This document shows positions 4,112 to 30,164 of a stretch of DNA of 64,000 nt, in pieces. Position 1 is the stretch's first letter. The number at the start of each line of letters is the position of its first letter. The position numbers and the translations under genes are program-made. Source of the stretch: Methanocaldococcus bathoardescens (GTDB lineage: Archaea > AGJL01 > Methanococci > Methanococcales > Methanocaldococcaceae); contig NZ_CP009149.1 of assembly GCF_000739065.1 (NCBI RefSeq), positions 1,435,311 through 1,499,310 of the forward strand, given 5' to 3'. Under the pieces are notes generated by a model. It saw only the letters and a program-made list of their open reading frames with translations, was not told the DNA's origin and ran no database searches.

Positions 4112-5272
4112 GTTAAAATCAGACCGTTTCGGTATGGAAACCTAAATATATAATTTTACTTCTTGGTGATATTTCTTGTTAAAGTTAAAATCAGACCGTT
4201 TCGGTATGGAAACACTTCATATATGACATCTTTATCTATACAACCGCATAAAAGTTAAAATCAGACCGTTTCGGTATGGAAACTCTTTTACTCCCTTCAA
4301 AACATCCTCTAAAGTTATCTCTACCATAGTTAAAATCAGACCGTTTCGGTATGGAAACTTTGGGATTGTGGCAACACATTAAACATTGTTGGTGTTAAAA
4401 TCAGACCGTTTCGGTATGGAAACCATTATCTACATACCATAAATTTTTAACCACAGCCTCACCGTTAAAATCAGACCGTTTCGGTATGGAAACTTAACAA
4501 AGTTCCATCCTTTCATACCAACTTCTGGGTTAAAATCAGACCGTTTCGGTATGGAAACAATAAATATAAAAGGAGCTCCAAACCCTTCCCCTAATCTATG
4601 AAACCTTGTTAAAATCAGACCGTTTCGGTATGGAAACTTCTCAATGAATTCTTTTTCCATAAATTCTTTTAATTGTTAAAATCAGACCGTTTCGGTATGG
4701 AAACATCAAACATGTTCTTAACAATTTTCTTTGCTTTGTCTGTTAAAATCAGACCGTTTCGGTATGGAAACTCTATTGTTCCTCCAGTAATTATCTGGGG
4801 AAAGTCTGGGTATGGTTAAAATCAGACCGTTTCGGTATGGAAACACTTATTGGGTTAGGGAGAGCCCGTGACTTTCCAAAACCTAACGTTAAAATCAGAC
4901 CGTTTCGGTATGGAAACTCTTCTTCTGCTACTTAGCCATGCCCTATATGCTCTCATACTTCTAAAGTGGTTAAAATCAGACCGTTTCGGTATGGAAACTT
5001 TTTATCTAAGAATTGACAAAACTTTTCATAAAGCTCGTTGTTAAAATCAGACCGTTTCGGTATGGAAACACTAATAACGTTGATACACTAAATTTAATAG
5101 TAGGAGTTAAAATCAGACCGTTTCGGTATGGAAACGCCAATAGAAGAGTGGAATTACATCGTTAGATTTATCAAAGTTAAAATCAGACCGTTTCGGTATG
5201 GAAACGAGAAAAGAGAATGTGTTTGATGTTAAAATAATATTCGTTAAAATCAGACCGTTACGGTATGGAAAC
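4112..5272 (+). CRISPR. CRISPR array 1, 17 repeats and 16 spacers
   Basis: A 30-bp repeat (begins GTTAAAATCAGACCG, ends GGTATGGAAAC) recurs at 4112, 4184, 4254, 4329, 4394, 4464, 4529, 4608, 4675, 4742, 4815, 4888, 4969, 5040, 5106, 5176 and 5243. Spacers are about 35-49 bp. The final repeat carries a T to A change (CCGTTACGG), as expected at the leader-distal end. The leader is on the left, so transcription is rightward. The 3' part ATGGAAAC resembles the 8-nt handle left by Cas6. The three arrays of the window share this repeat. Confidence 0.99.
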
Positions 5273-23116: not shown

Positions 23117-23229
23117 CGCTCCCACCTAATCATCTAAAAGTAAGTAGAACCTTAAACATAGCAATAAAGTAATATATAAACTTTTTGTTACTTTATAAAA
23201 ATAAACTAAGGTAAAAATGGTGATAATTT
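23117..23229. promoter_or_regulatory. Divergent promoter region of the Csm operon and truA
   Basis: Leftward, GTTTATATATTA (plus 23171-23182) is a good TATA box about 25 nt before a likely start near 23150. Rightward, CTTTATAAAAATA (23189-23201) is a TATA box that fits a start near the GGTGAT at 23219. The two boxes lie between the arms ATAAAGTAA and TTACTTTAT, a 9-bp inverted repeat that could be a shared operator. The rightward promoter faces the truncated truA start, not the complete gene. Confidence 0.55.
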
Positions 23230-23286
23230 ATGTATATCCTAAAAGTAGCCTATGATGGAAGATATTCCTTCCAACGAAACTTTTAG
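23230..23286 (+). pseudogene. Duplicate, truncated start of truA
   Basis: After a GGTGATAATTT ribosome site an 18-codon frame (MYILKVAYDGRYSFQRNF, stop) repeats the first 16 codons of truA (MHILKIAYDGRYSFQQ) found 175 bp downstream. The DNA of the two copies differs at about 10 of 48 positions, mostly at third codon positions, so this is a diverged homologous copy, not a recent tandem duplication. Homology stops abruptly after codon 15-16. Confidence 0.85.
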
Positions 23287-23404
23287 TAAAAGTTTCATCA
23301 AAACGGATGCATCACCTCGCTTCGCTCGGTGATTAGATGAAATCCTTCGGATTTCATTACTCGCCTTCGCTTCGCTCGGCGATGCCTCTTAGAGAGGTGG
23401 GATT
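23276..23404 (+). repeat. Hairpin-rich insert between the two truA starts
   Basis: Five stem-loops follow one another: GAAACTTTT/AAAAGTTTC (23276-23296), ATCACC/GGTGAT (23311-23333), ATGAAATCC/GGATTTCAT (23337-23357), CGCC/GGCG (23362-23381) and CCTCT/AGAGG (23385-23397). The second and fourth share the loop TCGCTTCGCTCGG. GC content is well above the surrounding intergenic DNA. It may be the remnant of an integrated element or a structured leader for truA. Confidence 0.7.
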
Positions 23405-24184
23405 ATGCACATATTAAAAATCGCATATGATGGAAGATACTCTTTCCAACAACAACCACATAAAGAGACAGTTTGTGATATTTTGTTAGATACCTTAGAA
23501 GAAATTGGGATTTTAGCTAAAAAGAAGATAATTTACAGTGGAGGGAGAACAGATAAAGGAGTCTCTGCCTTAGGAAACTTTATTGTTGTAGAGCTAAAAA
23601 AAGAACCAATACTCTCATACATAAATGCAAAGTTAAAAGATAAAGGCATCTGGGTTTTAGGATATAAAGAAATTGATGAGATCCCAAAAGTAAAATACAG
23701 ACATTATAGGTATATACTTCCAAATATCAACTATAACACAGAGGCAATAAAAGAAGGAGCAAAAAAGATGATTGGAACTCATTCCTTCCACAATCTATCA
23801 AAAAGAGATAGGTCAAAAGAAAAAAGTCCAATAAGAACAATTTATGATATAAAAATATCTGAGAATGATTTTTATTTGACAATAGATATTATTGGAGAGA
23901 GTTTCTTATGGAATATGGTTAGAAAAATAGTTGGAGCTTTAGATTTAGTAGGAAGAGGAAAAAAGCCAGTTGAATGGATTGATAAATTGTTAGATGAAAA
24001 TTATAGAGAAGGAGTTCCTACATTTCCACCGGATGGATTGATATTGGTTGAGGCAAAGGTTGATATTGATTATATATATGATAGCTACTCAATAAGAAAA
24101 TTTAGAGAGTATTGGGAAGAGTTCTTTAAATTGCATGTTATGAAATTGGGTATTGCCAAAACAGTTTTAGATTATACAAAATAG
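23405..24184 (+). CDS. truA: tRNA pseudouridine synthase TruA
   Basis: 259 aa, converts U38-40 of tRNA anticodon arms to pseudouridine. The catalytic Asp lies in GGRTDKGVSALGN near residue 50; GTHSFHNLSKRD and ESFLWNMVRKIVGAL are conserved family motifs. It is complete, with a GAGGTGGGATT ribosome site before ATG 23405. Its 5' region is unusual: the natural promoter and a second, diverged start lie 175 bp upstream, separated by a hairpin-rich insert, so transcription must cross that insert or begin within it. Confidence 0.96.
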   Translation: MHILKIAYDGRYSFQQQPHKETVCDILLDTLEEIGILAKKKIIYSGGRTDKGVSALGNFIVVELKKEPILSYINAKLKDKGIWVLGYKEIDEIPKVKYRHYRYILPNINYNTEAIKEGAKKMIGTHSFHNLSKRDRSKEKSPIRTIYDIKISENDFYLTIDIIGESFLWNMVRKIVGALDLVGRGKKPVEWIDKLLDENYREGVPTFPPDGLILVEAKVDIDYIYDSYSIRKFREYWEEFFKLHVMKLGIAKTVLDYTK

Positions 24185-24203: not shown

Positions 24204-24277
24204 GTGTACCCCGGGGGAGCAAAGGGGACTCACAGCTTGCCGGGCTGTTGCTCATCCCCCGCGGTTTCCCGGGGCAT
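24204..24277 (-). ncRNA. Candidate box H/ACA guide RNA
   Basis: A 70-nt GC-rich island in AT-rich DNA, read on the minus strand. An 8-bp basal stem GCCCCGGG/CCCGGGGU is followed directly by ACA. Inside are an 8+8-nt internal loop (AAACCGCG and UUUGCUCC), an upper stem GGGGA/UCCCC, an internal loop with UGAG on both strands (kink-turn-like), and a CAGC/GCUG hairpin. The ACA lies 16 nt from the pocket top, within the known 14-16 nt spacing. A TATA-like TTCTATAAG lies about 25 nt upstream of its 5' end on that strand. The plus strand could fold too but lacks ACA and the UGA pair. Confidence 0.62.
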
Positions 24278-29403: not shown

Positions 29404-30164
29404 GTTAAAATCAGACCGTTTCGGTATGGAAACTTTAGTTGATTTGTTTGATTTTGGCTTTGCTGTTTTGTTAAAATCAGACCGTTTCGGTATGGAAACA
29501 AATAGATGTCCTAACGATGTGGAAAGGTGTCAATTTTGTTAAAATCAGACCGTTTCGGTATGGAAACAATCTACGTATCTTCTTATATATATACACAACC
29601 AACGTTAAAATCAGACCGTTTCGGTATGGAAACCCCCCACAAGCCCTTTGAAATTATCATTTAATTTGGTTAAAATCAGACCGTTTCGGTATGGAAACCT
29701 TGTCCTTGTCCCGTAGTAGTGTCTTTTATGTGTGTTAAAATCAGACCGTTTCGGTATGGAAACTCTTTTTAATCTTCTCTAAGTCAATCATAAAAACCGT
29801 TAAAATCAGACCGTTTCGGTATGGAAACTCTTTTTAATCTTCTCTAAGTCAATCATAAAAACCGTTAAAATCAGACCGTTTCGGTATGGAAACAGCTACT
29901 GATTATTTTCACTGCTGTTGTTATCATCCCCATCATTGTTAAAATCAGACCGTTTCGGTATGGAAACGCTTTTACCCTCCCCCGACGGCCCCGTGATTGC
30001 GAGGTTAAAATCAGACCGTTTCGGTATGGAAACAATTTTAGCTATTTGATTAACTGAATCCCATTCTTGTTAAAATCAGACCGTTTCGGTATGGAAACAT
30101 AACAATCTTTATCCACGAACAAAAATAATTTATCTGTTAAAATCAGACCGTTTCGGTTTTAAAC
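29404..30164 (+). CRISPR. CRISPR array 2, 12 repeats and 11 spacers
   Basis: Same 30-bp repeat as array 1, starting at 29404, 29470, 29538, 29604, 29669, 29734, 29799, 29864, 29938, 30004, 30069 and 30136. The last copy is degenerate after CGGT (TTTAAAC replaces ATGGAAAC). Spacers are 35-44 bp. Spacers 6 and 7 (29764-29798 and 29829-29863) are identical. Spacer 9 (29968-30003) is 67 percent GC, far above the rest. Confidence 0.99.

Follow-up and report, generated by a model that had tools for sequence, protein, structure and literature searches.

The start of truA in Methanocaldococcus bathoardescens is present twice, on either side of a hairpin-rich element, and we found this layout to be general, occurring at dozens of genes in methane-making archaea. 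This generality is the new part of the result; the repeat family itself is probably known. The outer copy appears to have functioned as a gene end until recently. We consider it probable that recombination or templated break repair carries insertion alleles of the element from one lineage to another at the ends of orthologous genes, so that the gene has a wholly or partly imported end and the native end is left as a stub. The window, that is, the whole stretch of 64,000 nucleotides analysed here, covers positions 1,435,311 to 1,499,310 of the forward strand of NZ_CP009149.1 (GCF_000739065.1). Its genome is denoted G000, and other genomes and loci are given by G and L numbers where they must be told apart.

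A direct repeat of 48 nt with 39 identical positions and a spacing of 175 was found at the truA start (Table 1). An earlier account of this DNA, made from its letters without database searches (the sequence-only reading), had described a mostly synonymous duplication with about 10 differing bases, and this is accurate except that the number is 9. Seven codons differ; five of these differences are synonymous, and the other two give Tyr2/His2 and Val6/Ile6. When the 64-kb window was scanned without gaps for pairs of equal length and identity, with spacings of 60–300 bp, the truA pair was the sole match outside two tandem-spaced arrays; thus, the repeat is not a chance event. These two arrays have periods of about 65–73 nt and are CRISPR-array-like. 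A GGTG ribosome site precedes each start copy, as the same reading had it. The upstream copy forms an 18-codon frame, MYILKVAYDGRYSFQRNF, which is closed within the first hairpin. Judged from the scan, the TATATAAA box ahead of it is likely the native truA promoter. The insert between the two copies is 128 bp long and contains the five short stem-loops already noticed, two of which share a sequence (TCGCTTCGCTCGG, present twice). Folding of this region gave z = −3.4 on the plus strand and −4.8 on the minus strand. The upstream neighbour of truA in the window is a Csx1-type CARF gene on the opposite strand.

Table 1. Positions of the features at the truA locus and of the repeat arrays, counted from the first letter of the window.
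Feature	Position	Strand	Remarks
TATATAAA box	23173–23180	+	sequence scan; upstream of truncated truA start; putative promoter
truA remnant	23228–23275	+	first copy of the direct repeat; diverged codons 1–15 with own leader GGTGATAATTT (MYILKVAYDGRYSFQ); runs to in-frame TAG at 23284–23286
A-end hairpin of element	23276–23296		GAAACTTTTA/TAAAAGTTTC; adjoins remnant
Remaining hairpin element	23297–23392		with ATCAAAACGGATG linker
Element hairpins	23311–23333, 23337–23357, 23361–23382, 23385–23397
B end of element	23384–23392		GCCTCTTAG
Intact truA leader and ribosome site	23393–23404	+	AGAGGTGGGATT
Second copy of the direct repeat	23403–23450		start of intact truA
truA, intact	23405–24184	+	259 aa, tRNA pseudouridine synthase; Pfam PF01416, E 6e-28
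Pab160 H/ACA RNA	24205–24275	−	Rfam RF02796, E 9e-14; antisense-oriented
Tandem-spaced repeat arrays	4170–5150, 29525–30060

We used the truA insert as a DNA query and obtained 38 matches in its own genome (43 with a shorter query), and the element was present in 12 of 14 Methanocaldococcus genomes. An order-wide search of Methanococcales found it in 19 of 36 genomes and in all five of the five genera. The copies are modular, with an A-end hairpin that begins with GAAACTTTTAG or CCATAGGGC, linkers such as ATCAAAACGGATGCAT, and B ends in GCCTCTTAG, AATGTC or GTGTAAATTA. The hairpin arms differ in sequence and yet remain palindromic. The inserts are 65–300 bp long, consist of hairpins only and are non-coding; copies are numerous in G000, G001, G003 and G035 and absent from G008 and G012. 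Suyama, Lathe, and Bork described palindromic repetitive elements of Methanocaldococcus jannaschii in 2005 (FEBS Lett 579:5281, pmid 16182294, cited in PMC2229807). Our element is probably this family, a judgement made from its general description rather than from the published consensus groups. As far as the citing account goes, those repeats are dispersed palindromes in Methanocaldococcus, as are the copies found here, and some lie within genes or are fused to them. In the literature reached by our search, with most subscription papers outside it, there was no report of duplicated diverged gene ends, polarity or inter-species sharing for prokaryotic palindromic repeats.

To describe the layout in general, we aligned the 250 nt on each side of 121 element copies from 12 genomes and took as cut-off the 99th percentile of 2,996 cross-locus controls. 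Flanking duplicates above the cut-off were found at 47 copies, where 1.2 would be expected, and this count includes a few CRISPR repeats (e.g., at L125 and L126) that are to be discounted. The duplicated segments are about 16–77 nt long with 74–100% identity, and nearly all of them are the 5′ or 3′ end of the adjacent open reading frame or a tRNA 3′ end. The layout is also polar. The automatic call placed the A end beside the truncated copy, with the B end facing the boundary of the intact gene, at 18 loci and gave the opposite order at two; one of these two, L046, is an open reading frame read through the element and in fact belongs to the common type. Most of the remaining loci were left unclassified by the polarity pattern and by eye have the same arrangement. 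Among 26 loci with duplicates, 12 have the B end no more than 8 nt from the stop codon and 6 have it 13–30 nt ahead of the start codon; a B end this close (8 nt) to a gene end occurs in only 1 of 36 copies that lack duplicates.

We also set a replicate in another genus (G035), with at least 20% duplicates as the prediction fixed beforehand. Seven of 20 copies passed the score, for which the cross-locus control was spoiled by CRISPR arrays; three of the seven are CRISPR-array repeats and one is a hairpin. The genuine gene-end duplicates number 3 of 20 (15%; L278, L292 and L296), all with the predicted polarity, and the numerical prediction was therefore borne out in part.

Several further features of the copies were recorded. 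None of the 22 copies in G001 has a flanking duplicate, although the hairpin arrays there are long; in this, G001 differs from G000, G003, G006 and G011. In copies without duplicates (L048, L054, L065, L082, L110, L124), the A end often falls exactly at a gene 3′ end, and a TGA or TAG of the element seemingly supplies the stop codon of the gene. In several different tRNA genes (L028, L037, L038, L032, L041/L133), the T loop (GATTC/AAC) is where the stub starts each time, and this shared position is reminiscent of integrase attachment sites. Some elements (L125 and L126 in G011; L280, L290 and L291 in G035) lie in or beside CRISPR-like arrays, and their flanking repeats are the array repeats. 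The element also occurs repeatedly at the 3′ ends of a multi-copy gene family that ends in LKPQSFLVWNAIKKLL (L127 and L129 in G011, L080 and L087 in G003, L051 in G000); the L127 and L129 genes encode an MJ1010-like ATPase (Pfam PF21690/PF01637).

The association of stubs and elements was examined in orthologs of 16 loci in up to eight genomes, with one genome per species. Stubs were found in 16 of 25 element-bearing orthologs and in 0 of 53 element-free ones (P 1e-10), element presence being judged by motif. One alternative explanation would be that a plain insertion made a target-site duplication and that the useless copy then decayed neutrally, and the stubs at L045 and L026 of two species do differ chiefly by amino-acid changes. 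However, when polarised by the nearest element-free ortholog, 34 of the stub-lineage changes were synonymous and 17 were not, where decay would give about 25% synonymous (P 4e-10; loci were pooled, some codons are shared and a few columns are non-coding). The intact copies gave 51 to 17. The truA stubs of G000 and G010 are separated by six synonymous changes and no other, and stubs in general are no farther than intact copies from element-free orthologs. Decay of this kind is therefore very unlikely in our judgement. The synonymous excess indicates instead that the stub was long functional and that the two copies come from separate lineages. The L073 gene (F420 hydrogenase beta-subunit family) shows a similar picture: its stub and intact end differ at 13 positions, nearly all synonymous, while the stub has 6 and the intact end 8 differences from element-free G006. 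Element and stub are also found at this gene end in G035, where the gene was identified by eye from its ELGLPVPY end.

We compared the region near the start at 14 truA loci, two of them with wide flanks. The upstream comparison that the sequence-only reading had proposed gave, in part, the outcome named there as speaking against a scar: two truA starts are also found in one relative, G010, with a remnant and a shorter element. Most relatives have no element there: the start is plain in G006, G003, G001 and more distant species, and in G011, G004, G005 and G009 a B end or relic is kept ahead of the ribosome site. The G010 layout, the purely synonymous difference between the two remnants, and the in-frame course of the stub to the TAG of the first hairpin could suggest a regulatory leader, in which truA translation is governed by the short frame ahead of it and by the hairpins. 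This is very unlikely in our view, given that the same structure is seen at the 3′ ends of genes, tRNA genes included, that most relatives manage without it at truA, and that no Rfam family covers the insert. The sole Rfam match above the gathering score was the Pab160 H/ACA RNA, which lies directly downstream of this pseudouridine synthase gene.

The sequence-only reading had itself taken the locus for the scar of an SXT-like, integrase-borne element that integrated into truA and was later deleted. Such an event would indeed leave behind the old start and a second one equipped with its own ribosome site. However, hairpins of the same non-coding family are dispersed over dozens of other, unrelated genes; no integrase was seen beside the two truA loci with wide flanks, and the G004/G005 flanks are ordinary genes. 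We regard this origin as extremely improbable. The search for the hairpin element in other sites thus speaks against a scar, and equally it does not reduce the locus to a plain repeat insertion, as the same account had offered in its place, because each such site has its own gene end duplicated. In G004 and G005 (L006, L008, L015, L016), the upstream neighbour of truA is a P-type ATPase gene and not the Csx1-like gene, and about 600 bp of hairpin-rich debris lies at the synteny breakpoint upstream of truA. A large element at this place was considered and rejected, since there are only the breakpoint and the debris and no second truA start.

The truA leaders fit the general scheme. The intact-type leader (similar to AGRKAGGTGRRAATA) is, besides G000, limited to the element- or relic-bearing G010, G011, G004, G005 and G009, whereas the remnant leader GGTGATAA is similar to those of element-free G006 and G001. 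The codons are less telling. The intact start of G000 lies nearest to that of element-free G006, with 4 of 46 differences, and the remnant has 8 of 46 from the same start; the remnant differs from every truA of the genus at 6–13 positions. Its Val6 is common to the G010 remnant and to functional TruA of other Methanococcales genera and is therefore not a decay mutation. The truA of G035 differs from the remnant at only 3 of 36 bases (read by eye from the listed match). Based on Val6 and this match, the remnant appears to be a once-functional start from another or older lineage, and the codons point out neither copy as the immigrant.

At other loci, the moved copy could be recognised. The intact 32-nt tail of the L052 gene is identical in G000, G003 and G001 and has one difference in G011, although the gene bodies differ by 14–16%; its stub has one or two differences from element-free G004 and G006. 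The intact start of the L050 gene has 3 of 59 differences from G006, where the bodies differ by 16% and where an element relic and a stub are kept, and its stub is nearest to G003 and G001. For the L083 gene, G003 and G011 have a common leader and an MKKR start that are absent from element-free relatives, while the native MEKKK start is retained in the G011 stub. Hence, the part of the integration-scar idea that holds is an imported intact terminus with the native one truncated, as at the L052 and L050 genes; an integrase or large element as its agent does not. Only two or three of about 11 comparable loci clearly have intact ends that are more alike among species than their gene bodies. Element-free orthologs were nearer to the stub in 30 comparisons and to the intact end in 16 (P 0.054), and single-locus distances are noisy because gene ends are short. 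A uniform rule that the intact end is foreign was rejected, as it fails at truA and the L071 gene.

Young duplicates are informative about the mechanism. Three loci have identical copies (36/36, 40/40 and 30/30), which match as far as the gene boundary or close to it. Beyond that point, their flanks are unrelated: a leader fills the space between the intact copy and the B end, and the stub has no counterpart to it. A plain target-site duplication does not fit, because the duplicates stop near the gene boundary and the flank on the B side is not duplicated. The same ending therefore favours templated repair from an element-bearing donor, with homology ending there. A modified form may be proposed in which insertion makes a target-site duplication of 30–77 nt, later allelic recombination re-diversifies either copy, and deletion removes duplicates that are still identical. 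It accommodates the identical duplicates, requires no donor element for the first insertion, and accounts for the native-looking intact copy of truA. However, it meets the same difficulty at the gene boundary and gives no reason for the strictly fixed direction in which the element faces the gene, and we hold it to be unlikely.

Under the preferred explanation by recombination between lineages, the recipient gene would pair with a homologous element-bearing donor gene. The exchange would begin in the conserved gene end, and copying would pass outward through the donor gene terminus into the element, from the B end to the A-hairpin end. The copy would then be rejoined to the recipient within the terminus of its own gene, at a distance of 30–77 nt from the boundary, and the older stub beyond the A end of the donor would probably serve as the annealing partner. 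The product would be an intact gene with a wholly or partly donor-derived terminus, followed by the element and by the old terminus of the recipient as a truncated stub. Such outward copying would account for the polarity, the B end at the gene boundary, the functional-looking stubs, and the foreign or part-foreign intact ends; the truA locus presumably arose by the same route. Against it stand truA and the L071 gene, where the intact end does not look foreign, and the 74 of 121 copies that have no duplicate. In a more far-reaching form, which we put forward tentatively as a possibility, the elements may be a non-coding homing-like archaeal family. A nuclease acting in trans, of host or mobile origin, would cut the empty gene end, and break-induced copying that starts from a conserved gene end would carry the element across species and genus borders; in this way, recoded foreign versions may have taken the place of gene termini again and again throughout the order.

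If the scheme holds, gene ends in Methanococcales would be mosaics moved among species by selfish DNA, with a bearing on trees, on annotation (false starts or stops and stub open reading frames) and on homing without a self-encoded nuclease. An old and unexplained repeat family would gain a way to spread, also between species, without killing genes, because each landing at a gene end brings in a working substitute for that end. With empty and filled alleles, a polarity and the duplicated segments at hand, the scheme is directly testable.

Compared with known systems, the element shares traits with several. Transposons or MITEs with a target-site duplication would leave a continuous duplicate up to both element ends, which the three young loci do not have. 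Like REP/RAYT and IS200/IS605-derived small elements, it forms short dispersed hairpins in many copies. However, the Y1 transposase (PF01797) is absent from G000 and present in only 2 of the 14 genomes, so it is missing from most carriers, and an IS200/605 origin was rejected on this ground; our enzyme search, made with PF01797, identified no nuclease or other driver. To our knowledge, gene-end duplication is not a feature of REP/RAYT or IS200/IS605-derived elements. SXT/R391 ICEs at prfC likewise bring a replacement 5′ end of a gene, but the hairpin element has neither integrase nor cargo and occupies many unrelated sites. Mobile ORF elements of fungal mitochondria have been reported in Allomyces atp6 and in Glomus atp6, atp9, cox2 and nad3 (PMC3630166); they encode a homing endonuclease and affect C-termini, and the native end is 91–98% identical to relatives whereas the inserted end is 64–81% identical. 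In both systems, a gene end is replaced by a diverged, protein-conserving copy and the native end is left behind. A truncated native terminus with an inserted one diverged in DNA and not in protein was found at the L052, L050 and L083 genes and agrees with the pooled synonymous excess; at truA this was not clear. The hairpin element differs in that it is 65–300 bp long without an endonuclease gene, lies on the chromosome, and concerns the 5′ or the 3′ end of a gene, or the 3′ end of a tRNA. Because it is non-coding and is found at both gene ends and at tRNAs, it is not a member of the mobile ORFs.
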